Below, one piece after another: positions 13,525 to 64,000 of a DNA stretch of 64,000 nucleotides; within the stretch, counting starts at the first letter, position 1, and each line of letters opens with the position of its first letter. The notes under the pieces are model-generated. The model was not told the DNA's origin. It worked only from the letters and a program-made list of their open reading frames with translations, and did not search any database. The position numbers and the translations under genes are program-made. Source of the stretch: Xenophilus aerolatus (GTDB lineage Bacteria > Pseudomonadota > Gammaproteobacteria > Burkholderiales > Burkholderiaceae_C); assembly GCA_029968055.1 (NCBI GenBank), contig JASCNX010000002.1, positions 558,001 to 622,000 on the forward strand, read 5' to 3'.

Positions 13525-15903
<2,379 letters not shown>

Positions 15904-16974: not shown

Positions 16975-19101
<2,127 letters not shown>

Positions 19102-19291
19102 GCCGCCGCACGGGCGCCGGGGGCCGCCACGCCGCCGGCCCGCCGCGCCCGTGCGCGCTGCGCCGCGGCCCTGCGCCGGGCGCGTGCGCCGACCTGCCCA
19201 CCAGGGGCGTCGTCCGACAGGCCTCTCAGGCGAACCCCGCCGCGTGCCCGCGCGGCGGCGCCCTATAACCGGGTTCTGTCCCTTCCGTCCC

Positions 19292-21175
19292 ATGCCGATC
19301 AGCCACGCCCCTCTTTCGCCCGCCGACCTGCACCTCTTCCGGGAGGGCACGCACACGCGCCTGCACGAACGCCTGGGCGCGCACCTGCAGCCTCGCGGCG
19401 GCGTGCACTTCGCCGTCTGGGCGCCCAACGCGCGCCAGGTGCACGTGATCGGCGACTGGAACTACTGGAGCGACGCCGACCCGCTGCAGGCGCGCGAGGA
19501 CGGCAGCGGCATCTGGGAAGGCACGGTGGCCCAGGCCCAGCCGGGGCAGACCTACAAGTACCGCATCGTCGGCCCGCAGGGGCAGACGCTCGAGAAGGCC
19601 GACCCCTTCGCCTTCCAGACCGAGCTGCCGCCGGCCACCGCCTCGCGCATCTGGGGCGGTGCCCACGCCTGGACCGACGCCGAATGGATGGTGGGGCGGG
19701 CCGCGCGCAACGCGCTCGATGCGCCGATGGCCATCTACGAGGTGCACCCCGGCTCCTGGCAGCGGCAGGACGGCGAGTTCCTGGGCTGGCGCGAGCTGGC
19801 GACGCGGCTGGCCGCCTACGTGAAGGACATGGGCTTCACGCACGTCGAGCTGATGCCGGTCACCGAACACCCCTTCTACGGGTCGTGGGGCTACCAGACC
19901 ACCGGCTACTTCGCGCCCACCGCGCGCTATGGCACGCCCGAGGACTTCATGGCCTTCGTCGACCACCTGCACCGGCAGGACATCGGCGTGATCCTCGACT
20001 GGGTGCCCTCGCACTTTCCGACCGATGCCCATGGCCTGGCGCAGTTCGACGGCACGTACCTGTACGAGCATGCCGACCCGCGCCAGGGCTTCCACCCCGA
20101 ATGGAACTCGGCCATCTTCAACTACGGCCGGAACGAGGTGCGCAGCTTCCTGCTCTCTTCGGCGATGTACTGGCTGGAGCATTTCCACATCGACGGGCTG
20201 CGCGTGGACGCGGTGGCCTCGATGCTCTACCTCGACTACGCGCGCGGGCCGGGCCAGTGGATTCCCAACGTGCACGGTGGCCGCGAGAACCTGGAGGCGG
20301 TGCACTTCGTGCGCGAGCTCAACCGCGCCGTCTACCGCGACCATCCCGACACCTTCACCGTGGCCGAGGAGTCCACCGCCTGGCCGATGGTCTCGCGCCC
20401 CACCGAGATGGGCGGGCTGGGCTTCGGCATGAAGTGGAACATGGGCTGGATGCACGACACGCTGGCCTACCTCAAGGAGGAGCCGGTGCACCGGCGCTGG
20501 CACCACCACCGCATGACCTTCTCGCTGGTCTATGCCTTCAACGAGAACTTCGTGCTGCCGCTCTCGCACGACGAGGTGGTGCACGGCAAGGGCTCGCTGG
20601 TCAACAAGATGCCGGGCGACGACTGGCAGCAGTTCGCCAACCTGCGTGCCATGTTCGGCTACATGTGGGCGCATCCGGGCAAGAAGCTGCTCTTCATGGG
20701 CGGCGAGTTCGGCCAGCGCCGCGAGTGGACGCACGACGGCGAGCTCGAGTGGTGGGTCACCGGACTGCCGGGCCATGGCGGCACGCAGCGGCTGGTGCGG
20801 CAACTCAACGAGGCGCTGCGCAGCGAGCCGGCGCTCTACCAGCTCGACTTCTCGGGCGAGGGTTTCGAATGGATCGAGGCCGACGATGCCGAGCGCAGCG
20901 TCTACGCCTTCGTGCGCAAGGGCCGCGACGGCGCGCCGCCGGTGCTGGTGGTGAGCAACTTCACGCCCGTGCCGCGCGAGAACTACCGCCTGGGCGTGCC
21001 GCGCGCCGGCCGCTGGAGCGAGATCGTCAACAGCGACGCGCGCGAGTTCGACGGCTCCGGCTGGGGCAACCTGGGTGCCGTCGACACGGCGCCGGTGCCC
21101 TCGCACGGCCGACCGCAGTCGCTGGTGCTGTCGCTGCCGCCCCTGTCCACGCTGTACCTGAAAGGGCCGGCCTGA
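19292..21175 (+). CDS. glgB: 1,4-alpha-glucan branching enzyme
   Basis: A 627-residue GH13 branching enzyme that creates the alpha-1,6 branch points of glycogen. The CBM48 domain is near the N-terminus ([20 protein letters not shown]). The catalytic residues are D306 in [11 protein letters not shown]359 in TVAEEST and D427 in [12 protein letters not shown]. Compared with the ~730-residue E. coli enzyme it lacks the extra N1 domain and resembles the shorter ~630-residue forms. It starts at 19292 ([10 protein letters not shown]). It lies 81 bases upstream of glgE, its expected partner in the maltose-1-phosphate route. Confidence 0.95.
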
Positions 21176-21256
21176 GGCGCTTGGCACCGGCCCGGGCATC
21201 GTTCATGCTCCGGGGCGACCGTGCACCGGGGCGGCCCATCCACGAGACCTGATGAC

Positions 21257-23299
<2,043 letters not shown>

Positions 23300-26681: not shown

Positions 26682-27550
26682 ACGATTTCGGCTTTCACCT
26701 GGAACCGGTGCGCGCGATGCTGTTCCAGATCGGCGCCTTCATTCCGCGCCTGCTGTTCGCGGCGCTCATCGTGGTGGCCGGCTGGCTCATCGCCAAGGTG
26801 GTGCGCTTCGCCGTGACGCGGGCCCTGCGCGCCATCAACTTCCCGGTGCTCACCGAGCGTGCGGGGCTCGACGGCTTCCTGCGCCAGGGCGGCATGAAGA
26901 TCGACACCACCGGCGTGGTGGGGGTGCTGGCGTACTGGGTCGTCATCCTGGCGGCGCTGATCGTCGCCTTCAACGGGCTGGGCCTGACCTACGTGACCGA
27001 CCTGCTGGGCCGGGTGGTCTGGTTCGTGCCCAACATCTTCGTGGCGCTGCTGGTGCTGGCCTTCGGCTCGTACTTCGCGCGCTTCGTCGGCGACGCGGTG
27101 CTCACCTACTGCCGCAACGTCGGCGTGCGCGACGCCTTCTTCTTCTCCAAGGTGGCGCAGTACGCGGTGCTGGTCTTCGTGATCCTGATCGCGCTGGACC
27201 AGGTCAAGGTGGGCGGCGACATCGTGCGCGAGAGCTTCATCGTGATCCTCGCCGGCTTCGTGTTCGCCATCGCGCTGGCCTTCGGCCTCGCGGGCAAGGA
27301 CTGGGCGGCGCGCCGCATCGACGAATGGCTGCCGCGCGACGGCCTGCCGGGCGACGGCGTGCCGCCGCCCGCGCCGACGCCCGGCGAGCGCGCCGCGCGG
27401 GCCGGCGAGAGCCTGGCCGAGGAAGCGGCCGCCGCCCCGGTGGACGCGCTGGCGGGCACCGACGAGTCGCTGCGCGCAGCCGCGCCGCGGCGCAGCGGTG
27501 GCGAGCCGCTGATTCCCCGGCGCCCGGGCGACCCGCCGCCACCCATCTGA
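26678..27550 (+). CDS. Small-conductance channel-like membrane protein (conserved TM helix family)
   Basis: A 290-residue inner-membrane protein with about five predicted helices (residues ~18-40, 78-100, 112-134, 156-174, 184-206). A hydrophilic C-terminal tail rich in Ala, Pro and Glu follows. Repeated elements such as [20 protein letters not shown] and [20 protein letters not shown] resemble the 'conserved TM helix' family related to MscS channels. The large MscS beta-domain is absent. It starts inside the treS stop codon (ATGA) and ends 30 bases before treZ, so it is co-expressed with trehalose enzymes. Ion or solute release during osmotic change is an inference from context. Confidence 0.72.
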
Positions 27551-27580: not shown

Positions 27581-29449
27581 ATGAAAACCCATGGCTCGGC
27601 CATGCGCTTCGGCCCGACCGTGCTCGACGGCGGCGGCGTGCGATTCGCCCTCTGGGCGCCCGGCATCGACGTGCTCGACGGCGTCCGCCTGGAACGCCGC
27701 CTGCCCGGCAGCGACGACGACGCGCGCTGGGACGCGCAGCCGATGGTGCCGCGCAGCGGCGGCTGGTACGAGCTCGATGCGCCCGACGCGCTGCCGGGCG
27801 AGCTGTACCGCTTCGCGCTGCCCGATGGCCTGCGCGTGCCCGACCCGGCTTCGCGCGCCAACCCCGACGACGTCCACGGCCCAAGCGAGGTCGTCGACCC
27901 GGCGGCCTACGCGTGGAAGGACGCGGCCTGGCGCGGCCGCCCCTGGTCCGAGGCCGTGATCTATGAACTGCACGTGGGCACCTTCACGCCCGAGGGCACC
28001 TTCGAGGCCGCGCGCCGGCGCCTGCCGGAGCTCGCCGCGCTGGGCATCACCGCGGTGGAACTGATGCCCGTGGCCGACTTTCCCGGCCGGCGCAACTGGG
28101 GCTACGACGGCGTGCTGCTCTTCGCGCCCGACAGCGCCTACGGCCGGCCCGACGAGCTGCGCGCCCTCGTCGACGAGGCGCACGCGCTCGGCCTCATGGT
28201 GCTGCTCGACGTGGTCTACAACCACTTCGGCCCCGAAGGCAACTACCTGCACGCCTACTGCCCGGCCTTCTTCAACCCGGCCCACAAGACGCCCTGGGGC
28301 GCGGCCATCAACTTCGACGGCGAAGGCCGCGAGGCGGTGCGCGCCTTCTTCATCCAGAACGCGCTGTACTGGATCGAGGAATTCCACTTCGACGGCCTGC
28401 GGCTCGATGCGGTGCACGCCATCCGCGACGACTCCGACGAGCACATCGTGGCGGCGATCTGCCGGGCGCTGCGCGAGGGCCCGGGGCGCGAGCGCGCGCT
28501 GCACATCGTGCTGGAGAACGACCTCAACCAGGCCCGCTTCCTCGGGCGCGATCCGCAAGGCATCGCCGAGGTCGCGACCGCGCAGTGGAACGACGACCTG
28601 CACCATGCGGCGCACGTGCTGCTCACCGGCGAGACCGACGGCTACTACCTCGACTTCGCCGAGGAGCCTGCCGAGCAGTTCGGCCGCGCGCTGGCGCAGG
28701 GCTTTCTCTACACCGGCCAGGCCTCGGCCTTCCGCAGCGGCGAGCGCCGCGGTGAAGACCCATCGGGCCTGCCGCACGGCGCCTTCGTCTCCTTCCTGCA
28801 GACGCACGACCAGGTCGGCAACCGGGCCTTCGGCGACCGCATCGACGCGCTGGCCGACTCGGCGCGCGTGCAGGGCGCGCGCGCCGCGGTGCTGCTGTCG
28901 CCCCACGCGCCGATGCTCTTCATGGGCGAGGAGTTCGCGGCGACTTCGCCCTTCCTGTACTTCTGCGATTTCGGGCCCGAGCTGGCCGAGGCGGTGTCGC
29001 GCGGCCGGCGCGAGGAGTTCGGCCGCTTCGCCGCCTTCGAGAACGAGGCCGCACTGGCGCAGATCCCCGACCCGAATGCGCCGTCCACCTTCGAGGCCTC
29101 GCGGCTGAACGCCGGCGAGGCGCAGGGCGGCATGCACGCCCGGGCCCTGGAAGACACCCGCGCCGTGCTCGCCGTGCGTGCAAGAGAGATCGCGCCGCGG
29201 CTGCCCTCGCGGCCGGGCAGCGGGCGCTGGCACACGCAAGGGCAGGTGCTGTACCTGCAGTGGCTGCTCGACGGCGGCAGCGCACCGGCGCACCTGCAGC
29301 TGGTGCTCAACCTCGGCACCGAGCCTGCGCACGCTGCGGCGCCCCCCGGCCGCGCCATCTACGAGCGCGCCTGCCAGGTGGAGGCCGGTGGCCTGCACCT
29401 CGGCCCGGGCGGACTGCGCGTGGCCATCGAGGACGCTGCGCATGCTTGA
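27581..29449 (+). CDS. treZ: Malto-oligosyltrehalose trehalohydrolase
   Basis: A 622-residue GH13 enzyme that releases trehalose from the end of maltooligosyl-trehalose made by TreY. After an N-terminal beta domain (RFGPTVLDGGGVRFALWAPG) comes the barrel: D276 in DGLRLDAVHAI, E312 in HIVLENDLNQ and D410 in LQTHDQVGN. The segment YNHFGPEGNYL and IYELHVGTFTPEGTF are characteristic of TreZ. It starts at 27581; a second ATG at 27602 (MRFGPT) is a close alternative. Its end overlaps the malQ-treY start by 8 bases, so the two steps of the TreYZ route are coupled. Confidence 0.94.
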   Translation: MKTHGSAMRFGPTVLDGGGVRFALWAPGIDVLDGVRLERRLPGSDDDARWDAQPMVPRSGGWYELDAPDALPGELYRFALPDGLRVPDPASRANPDDVHGPSEVVDPAAYAWKDAAWRGRPWSEAVIYELHVGTFTPEGTFEAARRRLPELAALGITAVELMPVADFPGRRNWGYDGVLLFAPDSAYGRPDELRALVDEAHALGLMVLLDVVYNHFGPEGNYLHAYCPAFFNPAHKTPWGAAINFDGEGREAVRAFFIQNALYWIEEFHFDGLRLDAVHAIRDDSDEHIVAAICRALREGPGRERALHIVLENDLNQARFLGRDPQGIAEVATAQWNDDLHHAAHVLLTGETDGYYLDFAEEPAEQFGRALAQGFLYTGQASAFRSGERRGEDPSGLPHGAFVSFLQTHDQVGNRAFGDRIDALADSARVQGARAAVLLSPHAPMLFMGEEFAATSPFLYFCDFGPELAEAVSRGRREEFGRFAAFENEAALAQIPDPNAPSTFEASRLNAGEAQGGMHARALEDTRAVLAVRAREIAPRLPSRPGSGRWHTQGQVLYLQWLLDGGSAPAHLQLVLNLGTEPAHAAAPPGRAIYERACQVEAGGLHLGPGGLRVAIEDAAHA

Positions 29450-32400
29450 GGCCCTGCACCGCGCCTGCCTGCGGGCCGGCATCGCCACCTACTACCACGA
29501 CGTCTGGGGCCGGCGGGTCGAGGTCGCGCCGGACCGGCTGGCCGTGCTGCTGGCCGAATTCGGCTTCGGCAGCCACGCGCCGGACGATGCGCCGGCCTGG
29601 GAGGCCGAGCTCGCCGCCCGCGAGGCCGCGCAGTGGCGGCGTGCGCTGCCACCCGTGCAGCTCGTGCACGCCGGCGAGCCGCTGCGGCTGCCGCTGCGCC
29701 TGCCGGCCGACCTGGCGCACGCCGACTGGTCGCTGACCGACGAGCAGGGCGGGGTCTTGCGCGGCAGCCTCGCCCTCGGCGGCATGGAGGAGCGCGAGCG
29801 CCGCGAGCTGGACGGGCAATGGATCACCGAGCGCGTGGCGACGATCGCCGACGCGCTGCCCATGGGCTACCACCGGCTGCGCATCGAGGGCCGGCCGGAA
29901 GAGGCCCTGGTCATCGCCGCGCCGGCGCGCTGCTACGTGCCCGGCCAGGACGAGGGCGGCGCGCCCGAGCCGCGCCACTGGGGCATCGCGGTGCAGCTGT
30001 ACGGCCTGCGGTCCGCGCGGCAGTGGGGCATCGGCGACTTCGGCGACCTGGCCGCGCTGGCGGCGCCCGCCGCGCGGCTGGGTGCGCAGGCGATCGGGCT
30101 CAACCCGCTGCACGCCCTGTTCCCGCACGAGCCGGGCAAGCGCAGCCCCTACAGCCCCTCGTCGCGCCTGCACCTGAACCTGCTGTACATCGACGTCGAG
30201 GCGGCGCCGGGCTACCGGCGCAGCGCGGCAGCGCAGCAGCGCGTGGCGTCGCCCGAATTCCAGGCCCGGCTGGCGGCCCTGCGGGAGGCGGCGCTGGTCG
30301 ACCATGACGGCGTGGCGGCGGCCAAGCTGGAGGTGCTGGCCCTGGTGCATGCCGACTTCGCCGCCGCTTCGCCGGCCGCGGGCGATCCGGCCCAGGCCGA
30401 GCGCGAGGACTACCGCGCCTTCGTCGCGTCGCGCGGCGAGGCGCTGCAGCGGCATGCGCTCTTCGACGCCCTGCAGACGCATTTCCATGCGCTGGACCCC
30501 GAAGCCTGGGGCTGGCCCGTGTGGCCCGAGGGCTTCCAGTCGCCCGGGACGGCGCAGGTGCGCGCCTTCGCCGCCGAGCATGGAGCGCGCGTGGATTTCT
30601 TCGCCTGGCTGCAGTGGGTGGCCGACGCGCAACTGCAGGCGGCCGCGGCCCGCTGCCGCGCGGAGGGCCTGGGCATCGGCCTGTACCTCGACCAGGCGGT
30701 GTCGGTCGACCGCTACGGCTCCGACGCCTGGGGCGCGCGCACGGTGCTGGCCACCGGTGCCAGCGTGGGTGCGCCGCCGGACGAATTCAACCCGCTCGGC
30801 CAGGACTGGGGGCTGCCGCCGCTGAAACCCGTGGCACTGCGCGAGACGGGCTATGCGCTCTTCATCGACACCCTGCGTGCCGGCATGCGGGGCGCGGGCG
30901 CGTTGCGCATCGACCATGTGATGGGCCTCACCCGCCTGTTCTGCATGCCGCCCGGCGCCACGCCCGCCGAGGGCGCGTACGTGCACTACCCGGCCGAGGA
31001 AATGCTGGCCATCGTCGCGCTGGAGAGCCAGCGCCACCGGTGCATGGTGATCGGCGAGGACCTGGGCACGGTGTCCGACGAGACGCGGCATTTGCTGCAG
31101 CGCTTCGGGCTGCTGTCGTACCGGCTGCTGTACTTCGAGCGCGACGGCGCGGCCTTCAAGCCGCCGCAGGCATACCCGCGCGAAGCGCTCGCCGCGGTGA
31201 GCACCCACGACCTGGCCACGCTGCAGGGCTGGTGGAGCTCGACCGACCTGCAGGAGCGCATCCGGCTGGGCCTGTTCCCGCGCGAGGCGCTGGCCCTGCA
31301 GCAGCTGGCGGACCGCGCGGCGGAGCGCGCCCAGCTCGTGCTGGCGCTGCAGCAGGCCGGCTTGCTCGACGCCGAGGCGGTGGCCCGCGCGCTCGGCGCG
31401 GGCGTGCTGGATGCCGAGGCCTGCGCGGCGGTGCACCGCTACCTGGCGCAGACCCCCGCCCGGCTGATGATGGTGCAGGCCGAGGACCTGCTGGGCGAGC
31501 GCGAGCAGGCCAACATGCCGGGAACGCTCGACGCCCATCCCAACTGGCGCCGCCGCCTGTCGCTGCCGGCCGAACGCTGGCCCGCCGACGAGCGCGCGTG
31601 CGCCATGGCCGCCGCCGTGGCGCAGGAGCGGCCCACGCGCACGGATGCGGCGGGCGCGGCCGAACGCACGCGCATCCCGCGGGCGACCTACCGCCTGCAG
31701 TTCCACGAGGAGTTCACCTTCGACGACGCCATCGCCGTGCTGCCGTATCTCGCGCGGTTGGGCATCAGCCACGTGTACTGCTCGCCGATCCAGCGCGCCC
31801 GGCCGGGCAGCCGGCACGGCTACGACGTGGTGGCGCACGACGAGATCAATCCCGAGCTCGGCGGCTTCGAGGGCTTCGCGCGCTTCACCCGCGCGCTGCA
31901 GGACCTCGGCATGGGCCAGCTGCTCGACCTCGTGCCCAACCACATGGGCGTGCTGGGCGCCGACAACCCCTGGTGGCTCGACGTGCTGGAGAACGGCGAG
32001 GACTCGGCCTACGCCCGCTACTTCGACATCGAGTGGCAGCCGCTGGACGCCGACCTGGCGGGCAAGGTGTTGCTGCCCGTGCTGGGCGACGGCTACGGCG
32101 CCATCCTCGACCGCGGCGAGCTGAAGCTCGCCCTTGACGACACGCGCGGTGCGCTGTCGATCCGCTACCACGAGCACCGCTTCCCCCTGGCGCCGGCCAG
32201 CTACGCCGAGGTGCTGCGCTGGGCCGAAGGGCTGGTCGACGACGCGCAGGTGCAGGCCGCCTTCGCCAGCATCGGCCACGCCTTCGCGCACCTGCCGCGC
32301 GGCGACGCGGCGCGCGAGGTGCGCGCCCGCGAGCAGGCGATGGCGCACGCGCGGCTGGTGGAACTGCTGGACGGCCAGGCCGCCGCCGCGCCGGCGCTGC

Positions 32401-34562
32401 ACGCGGCCCTCGAGGCCTGGAACCGGCCGCGCGCACGCGACGCGCTGCATGCGCTGCTGGAGGCGCAGCACTACCGCCTGGCCTTCTGGCGCGTGGCCTC
32501 CGATGAAATCAACTACCGCCGCTTCTTCGACGTCAACGAACTGGCGGCCCTGCGCATGGAGCTGCCCGAGGTCTTCGAGGCCACGCAGGGCCTGGCGCTG
32601 GACCTGGCCGCGCGCGGCTGGGTCGACGGCCTGCGCATCGACCACCCCGACGGCATGCGCGACCCGGCCGAGTACTTCGAGCGGCTGCAGGACGGCTATG
32701 CGCAGCGCGTCGGCCGCCCACGCGCCGGCGCGGATGCGCAGGGGCGCCCCGACCGGCCGCTGTACGTCGTGGCCGAGAAGATCGCCGCCGGCCACGAGGA
32801 CGTGCCCGAGTCCTGGGCCATCCATGGCACCACCGGCTACCGATTCGCCAACGTGGCCAACGGCGTGCTCATCGACACCACGGCCGAGACCGCCTTCGGG
32901 CGCATCTGGCGCAGCTTCACCGGCATCGACACGCCGTACGAGGACGTGGTGCTGCAGTGCAAGCGCGCCGTCACCACCAACGCCCTGGCCTCGGACATGA
33001 CCGCGCTGGCCTCGATGCTGCTGCGCATCGCGCGGGCCGACCGGCACACGCGCGACCACACGCTCAACAACCTGCGGCGCGCGCTGGCCGAGGTGGTGGC
33101 CTGCATGAGCGTGTACCGCACCTACGTGACCGACGATGCGAGCGCGAGTGCGCAGGACCGGCGCTTCATCGACGAGGCCGTCGACGCCGCGAAGGCGCGC
33201 AGCGAGCTGGCCGACGCCTCGGTCTTCGACTTCATCCGCAGCGCGATGCTCGGCCAGGCCGGCGCCACCGAGGGCGCGCGTGCGCTGGTGCGCCGTTTCG
33301 CCGCGCGCTTCCAGCAGTTCAGCGCGCCGGTGGCGGCCAAGGGCGTGGAGGACACGGCCTTCTACCGCCACTTTCCGCTGGTGGCACTCAACGAGGTGGG
33401 CGGCGAGCCGGCGGTGTTCGGCTTCACGCTCGAGGCCTTCCATGCCGCCAGCCGCGACCGCGCCGAACGCTGGCCGCACACGCTGCTGGCCACGTCCACG
33501 CACGACAACAAGCGCGCCGAGGATGTGCGCACGCGCATCGACGTGCTGTCCGAGATGCCGGCCACCTGGCGCCTGGCGCTGCGGCGCTGGCGTGCGCTGC
33601 AGGCGCCGCTGCGCCGCCAGTTGCGCGCGGCGCACGGCATGGAGCCGTCGGCTGCGGACGAATACCTGCTCTACCAGACGCTGCTGGGCACCTGGGAGGC
33701 CGATGCCGAAGGCCGCCCGCCGGCCGACTACGCCGACCGCCTCGTCGCCTACCTGCGCAAGGCGGCGCGCGAGGCCAAGGTGCACACCAGCTGGCTGCAG
33801 CCCGACGAGGCCTACGAGGCGACGCAGGAGGCCTTCGTGCGGGCGCTGGTCGACCCGGCCCGCTCGCCGCGCTTCCTGGAGGACTTCCGGCCGCTGGCCG
33901 AGCGCCTGGCCTGGTACGGCGGCCTGAACAGCCTGGTGCTGATGGCGCTGAAGTTCACCTCGGCGGGCGTGCCCGACGTCTACCAGGGCAGCGAGTGGAT
34001 CGACCTGAGCCTGGTCGACCCGGACAACCGCCGCCCGGTCGACTACGCCCTGCGCGCGCAGACGCTGGACGCGCTCGACGCGATGGCGGCATCGGCCGGC
34101 GACGGACTGCCCGAACGGGTGGGCGAGCTGCTCGCGCCCGCGCGCCTGCCGCAGGCCAAGCTGTGGGCCGTGTCGCGGCTGCTGCGTCTGCGCGCGGCGC
34201 ACTGGCCGGTGCTGCGCGACGCCGCGCACGAGGTGCTGGCGGTGGCGGGCCCGGCCGCGGGCGCCACCGTGGCCTACCGCCGGGCGACGCCGCAGGGCCA
34301 GGTGTGCGTGGTGGCGGGCCGGTTCTTCTCTCAGCAGGACGATGCGGCCGGGCGCGAGGCCGGGCAGGCGCCCGGCACCTGGCGCTCCACGGCCTGGCAG
34401 GGCACGCAGGTGGTGGCCGGCCCGGCGGCGCCCGATGGCACCGTGTGGACGGACGTGATGACCGGCCGGACCTGGGACGCGGGCCAGGCCTGGGAGGTCG
34501 ATGCGCTGCTGCGCCACTGGCCCTGCGCGGTGCTCGTGTCACGCCCTGTCAGCGGCGGCTGA
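29442..34562 (+). CDS. malQ-treY: 4-alpha-glucanotransferase / malto-oligosyltrehalose synthase fusion
   Basis: A 1706-residue two-enzyme polypeptide in one uninterrupted frame. Residues 1-~725 are a GH77 amylomaltase (MalQ) that shuffles maltodextrins: D491 in LRIDHVMGL, E539 in VIGEDLGTV and D590 in VSTHDLATL. A ~20-residue linker follows. From ~743 the protein is TreY, starting RIPRATYRLQFHEEFTFDDA. TreY isomerises the reducing end of a maltodextrin into a trehalose unit: D1067 in LRIDHPDGM, E1112 in VVAEKIAAG and D1355 in TSTHDNKRAED. Both active sites look complete. The start at 29442 overlaps the treZ end. The fusion would deliver chains from MalQ to TreY, with TreZ made from the same message. 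Confidence 0.93.
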   Translation: MLEALHRACLRAGIATYYHDVWGRRVEVAPDRLAVLLAEFGFGSHAPDDAPAWEAELAAREAAQWRRALPPVQLVHAGEPLRLPLRLPADLAHADWSLTDEQGGVLRGSLALGGMEERERRELDGQWITERVATIADALPMGYHRLRIEGRPEEALVIAAPARCYVPGQDEGGAPEPRHWGIAVQLYGLRSARQWGIGDFGDLAALAAPAARLGAQAIGLNPLHALFPHEPGKRSPYSPSSRLHLNLLYIDVEAAPGYRRSAAAQQRVASPEFQARLAALREAALVDHDGVAAAKLEVLALVHADFAAASPAAGDPAQAEREDYRAFVASRGEALQRHALFDALQTHFHALDPEAWGWPVWPEGFQSPGTAQVRAFAAEHGARVDFFAWLQWVADAQLQAAAARCRAEGLGIGLYLDQAVSVDRYGSDAWGARTVLATGASVGAPPDEFNPLGQDWGLPPLKPVALRETGYALFIDTLRAGMRGAGALRIDHVMGLTRLFCMPPGATPAEGAYVHYPAEEMLAIVALESQRHRCMVIGEDLGTVSDETRHLLQRFGLLSYRLLYFERDGAAFKPPQAYPREALAAVSTHDLATLQGWWSSTDLQERIRLGLFPREALALQQLADRAAERAQLVLALQQAGLLDAEAVARALGAGVLDAEACAAVHRYLAQTPARLMMVQAEDLLGEREQANMPGTLDAHPNWRRRLSLPAERWPADERACAMAAAVAQERPTRTDAAGAAERTRIPRATYRLQFHEEFTFDDAIAVLPYLARLGISHVYCSPIQRARPGSRHGYDVVAHDEINPELGGFEGFARFTRALQDLGMGQLLDLVPNHMGVLGADNPWWLDVLENGEDSAYARYFDIEWQPLDADLAGKVLLPVLGDGYGAILDRGELKLALDDTRGALSIRYHEHRFPLAPASYAEVLRWAEGLVDDAQVQAAFASIGHAFAHLPRGDAAREVRAREQAMAHARLVELLDGQAAAAPALHAALEAWNRPRARDALHALLEAQHYRLAFWRVASDEINYRRFFDVNELAALRMELPEVFEATQGLALDLAARGWVDGLRIDHPDGMRDPAEYFERLQDGYAQRVGRPRAGADAQGRPDRPLYVVAEKIAAGHEDVPESWAIHGTTGYRFANVANGVLIDTTAETAFGRIWRSFTGIDTPYEDVVLQCKRAVTTNALASDMTALASMLLRIARADRHTRDHTLNNLRRALAEVVACMSVYRTYVTDDASASAQDRRFIDEAVDAAKARSELADASVFDFIRSAMLGQAGATEGARALVRRFAARFQQFSAPVAAKGVEDTAFYRHFPLVALNEVGGEPAVFGFTLEAFHAASRDRAERWPHTLLATSTHDNKRAEDVRTRIDVLSEMPATWRLALRRWRALQAPLRRQLRAAHGMEPSAADEYLLYQTLLGTWEADAEGRPPADYADRLVAYLRKAAREAKVHTSWLQPDEAYEATQEAFVRALVDPARSPRFLEDFRPLAERLAWYGGLNSLVLMALKFTSAGVPDVYQGSEWIDLSLVDPDNRRPVDYALRAQTLDALDAMAASAGDGLPERVGELLAPARLPQAKLWAVSRLLRLRAAHWPVLRDAAHEVLAVAGPAAGATVAYRRATPQGQVCVVAGRFFSQQDDAAGREAGQAPGTWRSTAWQGTQVVAGPAAPDGTVWTDVMTGRTWDAGQAWEVDALLRHWPCAVLVSRPVSGG

Positions 34563-63365: not shown

Positions 63366-64000
63366 TCAGCCCAGCACCACCGGCTTCGTCCGCCAGATCT
63401 CGTGCGCGTACTCGGCGATGGTGCGGTCGGACGAGAAGGCGCCCATGCCGGCGACGTTGAGGATGGCCTTGCGGGTCCAGGCGTCGGGGTCGCGGTAGAG
63501 CGCATCGACCTGGGCTTGCATCTCGATGTAGCTCGCGTAGTCGGCCAGCAGCAGGTAGTGGTCGCCCCAGTTCACCAGGGCGTCGAAGATGCCCTGGTAG
63601 CGGTTGGGCTCGCCGGGCGAGAAGACGCCGGACTGGATGGCGTCGAGCACGCGCTTGAGTTCCGGGTTGCCTTCGTAGTAGTTGCGCGGCTGGTAGCCGC
63701 TGGCGCGGATGTCGGCCACCTGCGGCGTGGTGTTGCCGAAGATGAAGATGTTGTCCTCGCCCACGTTCTCGCGCATCTCGACGTTGGCGCCGTCCAGCGT
63801 GCCGATGGTCAGCGCGCCGTTGAGCGCGAACTTCATGTTGCCGGTGCCCGAGGCCTCGGTGCCGGCGGTGGAGATCTGCTCCGACAGGTCGGCCGCCGGC
63901 ATGATGATTTCGGCCAGGCTCACCGAGTAGTTGGGCAGGAACACCACCTTCAGAAGCTTGCCCACGCGCTCGTCGGCGTTGATGACCGCGCCCACGTCGT
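63366..64000 (-). CDS. glgP: Glycogen/maltodextrin phosphorylase, C-terminal part (runs off window)
   Basis: Only the last 211 codons are in the window; the 5' part lies beyond base 64000. The PLP-binding lysine motif [19 protein letters not shown] is intact. The preceding [20 protein letters not shown] and the C-terminal [20 protein letters not shown], then IW, are typical of GlgP/MalP. It releases glucose-1-phosphate from glycogen ends and is the degradative partner of the glucan cluster 29 kb away. It is convergent with exbD across the inverted repeat. Confidence 0.93.

Follow-up and report, generated by a model that had tools for sequence, protein, structure and literature searches.

The window (the whole stretch of 64,000 nucleotides of Xenophilus aerolatus DNA analyzed here) contains a single open reading frame in which a complete amylomaltase (MalQ) is followed by a complete maltooligosyltrehalose synthase (TreY), the architecture of the catalogued MalQ-TreY family PRK14507. 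We think it probable that this protein arose when neighboring genes merged, that both of its domains are active, and that MalQ recycles short chains for TreY by way of a common pool. Judging from the sequence, the enzyme is most likely bifunctional, and it probably turns short starch-like chains into the protective sugar trehalose.

Translation from the ATG at 29442 to the stop codon at 34560-34562 runs for 1706 residues with no internal stop; the longest frame opens further upstream, at a GTG (29178), and the ATG is the putative protein start. The treZ stop codon (TGA, 29447-29449) overlaps this ATG by 8 bases. Each half exceeds the cut-off of its own family model: TIGR00217 (malQ) covers residues 138-713 at 468 bits against 205.65, and the TIGR02401 (TreY) score (Table 1) compares with a cut-off of 498.65, while Pfam recognizes the beginning of a GH13 catalytic domain over residues 765-862. 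Among solved structures, the nearest in sequence are the 4-alpha-glucanotransferase 4s3p (E 1.4e-140), which we take to be E. coli MalQ, and the MTSase 6lcv (E 3.3e-116). Motifs that align to solved 4-alpha-glucanotransferases and MTSases predict the catalytic Asp, Glu, and Asp of the GH77 domain as D491, E539, and D590, and those of the TreY domain as D1067, E1112, and D1355, each presumably with the chemical role customary in its family; the first three are present in all 40 fused MalQ rows and the second three in all 41 fused TreY rows, near-copies included in both alignments. The first-pass annotation, which had described a complete amylomaltase and a complete TreY in one 1706-residue frame, three catalytic carboxylates in each, and a treZ gene overlapping the start, was right on all of these points.

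Table 1. Genes of the glgX to malQ-treY run and domains of the fused protein (positions in the window)
Feature	Position	Strand	Model matches
glgX	16975..19101	+	TIGR02100, 1038 bits
glgB (longest frame)	19151..21175	+	TIGR01515, 892 bits; NF003811, 967 bits
glgE	21221..23299	+	PF11896, 162.5 bits; PF21702, 96.5 bits
treS-mak fused gene, 1117 aa	23328..26681	+	TIGR02456, 933 bits; TIGR02457, 448 bits; both above cut-off
MscS-like mechanosensitive channel gene (provisional start codon)	26696..27550	+	PF05552, 72.8 bits
treZ, 622 aa	27581..29449	+	TIGR02402, 682 bits (cut-off 538.8)
malQ-treY fused gene, 1706 aa	29442..34562	+	open frame; NF011077/PRK14507.1 over residues 3-1700
MalQ N-terminal beta-sandwich domain (MalQ_N), residues 69-161	29646..29924	+	PF21226, 58.5 bits
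GH77 amylomaltase catalytic domain, residues 184-707	29991..31562	+	PF02446, 387 bits
Interdomain linker, ~residues 706-745 (~40 residues), Ala/Arg/Pro-rich	31557..31676	+	
TreY (maltooligosyltrehalose synthase) domain, residues 746-1699	31677..34538	+	TIGR02401, 938 bits

The MalQ-TreY fusion is already known from many proteobacteria and is largely ordinary: NF011077.0/PRK14507.1 ('malto-oligosyltrehalose synthase'), a curated NCBIfam model of 1693 positions, holds both halves and spans the whole fusion, so the novelty implied by the first-pass annotation was mistaken. The protein is co-linear with model positions 6-1690 in one frame, a full-length match, and scores 2109.2 bits, 39 bits short of the curated cut-off of 2148; because this threshold is narrowly missed, the protein has the architecture of the family but is not a formal equivalog. 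The 12 one-frame copies in the genus, this one included, score 2038-2129, all below the cut-off; separate MalQ genes match approximately positions 4-730 of the model, and separate TreY genes approximately 730-1691. Our searches of the open-access full-text literature turned up neither a paper on the MalQ-TreY fusion nor a characterized member. According to the available part of PMC8084333, the glgA-treZ-malQ-treY-glgX operon of Pseudomonas aeruginosa PAO1 has the same enzymes and the same treZ-malQ-treY order, but malQ and treY are separate genes there, and glgE-treS/pep2-glgB form another operon. The bifunctional GlgX/MalQ of NF011082/PRK14510, a model that matches the MalQ half of our protein at 501 bits, likewise fuses MalQ to an enzyme of the same pathway, but the partner is a debranching enzyme and lies on the N side of MalQ. 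TreS-Mak (TreS-Pep2), characterized as a fused enzyme in P. aeruginosa and Estrella (PMC11046441, in excerpt) and encoded in the same cluster as malQ-treY, also unites steps, but other enzymes are involved and the steps are two consecutive ones of a single route. MalQ-TreY is one more case of fused steps in bacterial alpha-glucan and trehalose metabolism.

The plus-strand order is glgX-glgB-glgE-treS/mak-msc-treZ-malQ/treY, and since all these genes lie on one strand with intergenic gaps below 50 bases (genes called by longest frames), it is natural to infer that they form one operon. Within this run, the best glgB family matches start at residues 57-70 of the longest frame, glgE has no NCBIfam match at E 1e-10, and the channel gene scores 77 bits with NF033912 (msc), below the cut-off of 100. 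An MscS-like gene adjoins treS-mak in 21 of 136 scanned loci, many of which do not reach that far; a channel of this kind in a trehalose/GlgE cluster may link osmolyte synthesis with osmotic release. About 1 kb before glgX, a catalase-peroxidase gene (KatG, 13525-15903) lies on the minus strand. Elsewhere in this 5.12 Mb genome, the tail of glgP occupies positions 63390-64000 of the window, with glgA just past its end, the two forming another glycogen cluster some 29 kb away from malQ-treY, and OtsA is encoded on another contig. The fused MalQ and TreY are probably the cell's only copies, because no second full GH77 or TreY was found in the genome.

The first-pass annotation had proposed that proteins with GH77 followed by TreY be sought and their taxa tabulated. 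Within the genus, NF011077 matches over its full length in one frame in 12 of 15 genomes, including this one; the match is split over two contigs in G009 and G012, and parted into two genes in G005. Genomes from other genera of the family gave no full-length match (0 of 9), those from other families of the order gave two (2 of 16), and none of 14 control genomes passed the model cut-off. In an evenly drawn sample of 281 genomes of the class, matched at E 1e-80 with at most two candidates scored per genome, so that second genes may be missed, 35 genomes matched: 8 with a full fused frame (this one included), 1 with a fused gene broken over two contigs, 18 with TreY outside a fused frame (8 of them with a separate MalQ match), and 8 with MalQ only; in many genomes of this sample the two halves are separate genes. 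The window protein was also used to retrieve 75 named loci, a sample weighted toward close relatives; in 32 of them MalQ and TreY sequence share one frame. Three of the 32 are not complete, L014 and L015 being truncated by the ends of their contigs and L034 having an interruption in its MalQ part. Another three (L064, L082, and L083), whose sequence runs out at a contig edge within MalQ or shortly after it, were left out of the 32. The fused loci belong to Xenophilus, Pseudacidovorax, Variovorax, Sterolibacterium, Gallionellaceae, Rhodocyclaceae, Halochromatium, Lamprobacter, Thiohalocapsa, and less closely named Pseudomonadota; most are betaproteobacterial, and the fusion is patchy in both Beta- and Gammaproteobacteria.

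To judge by gene order, the fusion looks like a co-linear merger of neighboring genes of a treZ-malQ-treY operon, because five loci (L119-L123) keep unfused treZ, malQ, and treY in the order of the fused gene, as does P. aeruginosa (PMC8084333, in excerpt). A single origin was rejected in both domain trees, where the fused rows do not form one clade (TreY, 36 fused versus 30 other rows, p-AU 3.6e-139; MalQ, 36 versus 23, p-AU 2.8e-4), which implies more than one event of fusion, parting, or transfer; the trees are quick and unrooted, and do not tell repeated fusion, parting, and gene transfer apart. Before the trees were built we discarded 25 loci that we took to duplicate longer ones, as well as L012, the locus of this genome itself, and domain pieces that were too short; L015, L019, L025, L047, and L063 were dropped from the TreY tree, and the MalQ tree omits 13 Actinomycetota loci along with L019, L025, and L047. 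Another eight loci, whose state is uncertain (L034, L038, L039, L042, L064, L082, L094, and L107), were removed, where present, before the p-AU tests: with these loci kept, the fused label changes 12 times on the TreY tree and 9 times on the MalQ tree, and with them removed, 7 and 6 times.

The congener G005 (L117:2955-7686 and L118:3352-16244) has malQ next to the channel gene in its GlgE cluster, and treZ-treY on another contig. Its separate MalQ and TreY group with the fused copies of the genus in both trees (support 100, nine fused rows and G005), although their places differ, TreY lying beside the subgroup of the window protein and MalQ beside Pseudacidovorax; for a position inside versus beside the fused copies of the genus, p-AU is 0.476 in the TreY tree and 0.321 in the MalQ tree. 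Since fused relatives also fall outside its group, the simpler reading would be that G005 has parted a once-fused gene, and it offers a natural control for the fusion.

MalQ is joined to different partners elsewhere. Mak, TreZ, and MalQ share one stop-free frame of 1818-1909 residues at five Azospirillum loci (five species) and in a Rubritepida MAG (L046:6443-12166, plus strand; L045, L047, L054, L057, and L059), and four of the five Azospirillum loci have a separate treY immediately downstream. All six triples carry the kinase HGD and DFE motifs, two MalQ catalytic motifs, and the TreZ QNHDQ motif; three carry the TreZ GLRLDAVH pattern, and no credible match to the TreZ Glu pattern was found in any of the six. 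The pattern for the third MalQ motif matches none of them; in the alignment, however, all of the 40 non-fused rows, triples included, have Asp in that column except the cut row L064. In L046, the one member scanned, Mak, TreZ, and MalQ each score above their NCBIfam cut-offs, and no listed NCBIfam model spans the whole. The Mak part exceeds its cut-off in five of the six genomes (Rubritepida has 342 bits against 375), and all six genomes have a second Mak match above the cut-off, located in a different frame whose length (1063-1293 residues) would suit TreS-Mak. Our literature search found no paper naming a Mak-TreZ-MalQ triple, which may be less familiar than MalQ-TreY. In genomes outside Azospirillum and Rubritepida, TreZ-MalQ hits in G458 and G491 and a Mak-TreZ hit in G604 cross stop codons, and were not counted; further MalQ hits of that genome search occupy open frames whose lengths, about 1400-1520 or 1670-1725 residues, would fit GlgX-MalQ and MalQ-TreY.

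Why should MalQ be joined to TreY? TreY requires a chain of some length and each round of TreY and TreZ takes off two glucoses, so short dextrins accumulate. We favor recycling through a common pool, in which i) GlgX and GlgP would provide linear maltodextrins; ii) TreY would convert the reducing-end alpha-1,4 bond to alpha,alpha-1,1; iii) TreZ would free trehalose, leaving a chain two glucoses shorter; iv) MalQ would disproportionate chains that are too short into longer chains and glucose (for example, G3 + G3 to G5 + G1), making short dextrins usable again so that TreY and TreZ could continue; and v) the covalent link would keep the two domains in equal amounts and in one place on a flexible tether, while substrates pass between them through the pool and not by a channel. 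By simple arithmetic, a G5 chain would give one trehalose if MalQ were absent and as many as two if it were present. In the available part of PMC11611815, short chains limit the trehalose yield, CGTase added to TreY and TreZ raises it by reusing maltose and short dextrins, and a disproportionating enzyme better at using maltose gives more trehalose and less residual maltose. The first-pass proposal that MalQ feeds TreY is chemically sound insofar as it concerns the lengthening of short chains; direct transfer between the domains is unsupported. Because unused short chains limit yield in PMC11611815, a natural MalQ-TreY enzyme could be useful for producing trehalose from maltodextrins.

The main rival, to which we give a rather low probability, is that MalQ acts chiefly as a branch valve supplying maltose to the maltokinase/GlgE pathway and by-passing TreY, TreZ, and TreS, the fusion serving only to fix the ratio of competing uses of glucan. 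In the accessible portion of PMC8084333, P. aeruginosa MalQ together with TreS/Pep2 converted maltohexaose to maltose-1-phosphate, and MalQ there can supply maltose to the kinase. A strain without the separate malQ had 0.32% trehalose in place of 0.13%, which tells against a simple feeding role and implies that MalQ can compete with TreY in that organism. The presence of glgE and treS-mak in the same cluster as malQ-treY, and the fusion of Azospirillum MalQ to maltokinase and TreZ, point the same way. In the window, however, MalQ is joined to TreY and Mak to TreS, and since the P. aeruginosa proteins are separate, the result may not carry over.

A more doubtful extension places MalQ where the pathway divides toward trehalose (TreY/TreZ) or maltose-1-phosphate (Mak/GlgE), and supposes that lineages fix the direction by choice of covalent partner. 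If so, a TreY partner would mean chains recycled to trehalose, and a Mak-TreZ partner, as in Azospirillum, diversion to or balance with maltose-1-phosphate, other lineages having a GlgX partner; the fusion partner would then predict the direction of flux, a testable link that the Azospirillum triple suggests.

We regard as quite improbable the direct channeling put forward in the first-pass annotation, whereby a chain made by MalQ would go straight to the TreY site within one molecule, and onward from TreY to TreZ. The covalent fusion itself and the treZ overlap, which would allow translational coupling, speak for it; but neither the length nor the composition of the linker is conserved, the halves lie on two contigs in G005, both substrates are small and soluble, and the rise in trehalose upon loss of malQ in P. 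aeruginosa (PMC8084333, in excerpt) also counts against it. Among the 34 of 42 fused rows in which both edges matched, linkers range from 35 to 146 residues, all within 35-52 except in four Chromatiaceae rows (65, 77, 126, and 146). The two longest, from Lamprobacter (L056:11338-17289, 146 residues) and Halochromatium (L058:9956-15679, 126 residues), have a high content of Q, N, and G and contain Q/N/G-F repeats.

It is very improbable that either domain is without catalytic function and acts as a scaffold or regulator, as occurs in other fused trehalose enzymes such as the yeast TPS subunits (PMC1769515, in excerpt): we found no support for this here, and the six carboxylates are invariant in every fused row examined. 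Nor is chance or sequencing error a credible source of the fused frame: in L034 and L038 the malQ and treY sequences do fall in separate frames that overlap, but orthologues in independent assemblies share the fused frame. The open frame, its conservation in 12 of 15 genomes of the genus, an even GC3 of 0.89-0.98 all along it, and the absence from residues 691-775 of any in-frame ATG, GTG, TTG, or CTG with any of the Shine-Dalgarno-like motifs searched for leave almost no room for an artefact or for a reading as two proteins, and lead us to reject a frameshift or two genes. Candidate internal starts for a separate TreY (ATG or GTG at 692, 722, and 726; other GTG, TTG, or CTG codons to 775) lack such a motif and are unlikely.

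In both domain trees the fused rows lie scattered, so fusion, parting, or transfer has recurred; the fused, adjacent, parted, and alternatively fused forms provide natural controls for asking whether covalent linkage changes flux. Two further arrangements were observed: TreZ-TreY in one frame in a betaproteobacterial MAG (L040:8189-12919, plus strand), and GlgX with TreY in one open frame cut by the end of the locus (L106:1492-5673, minus strand), possibly a TreX-TreY fusion.
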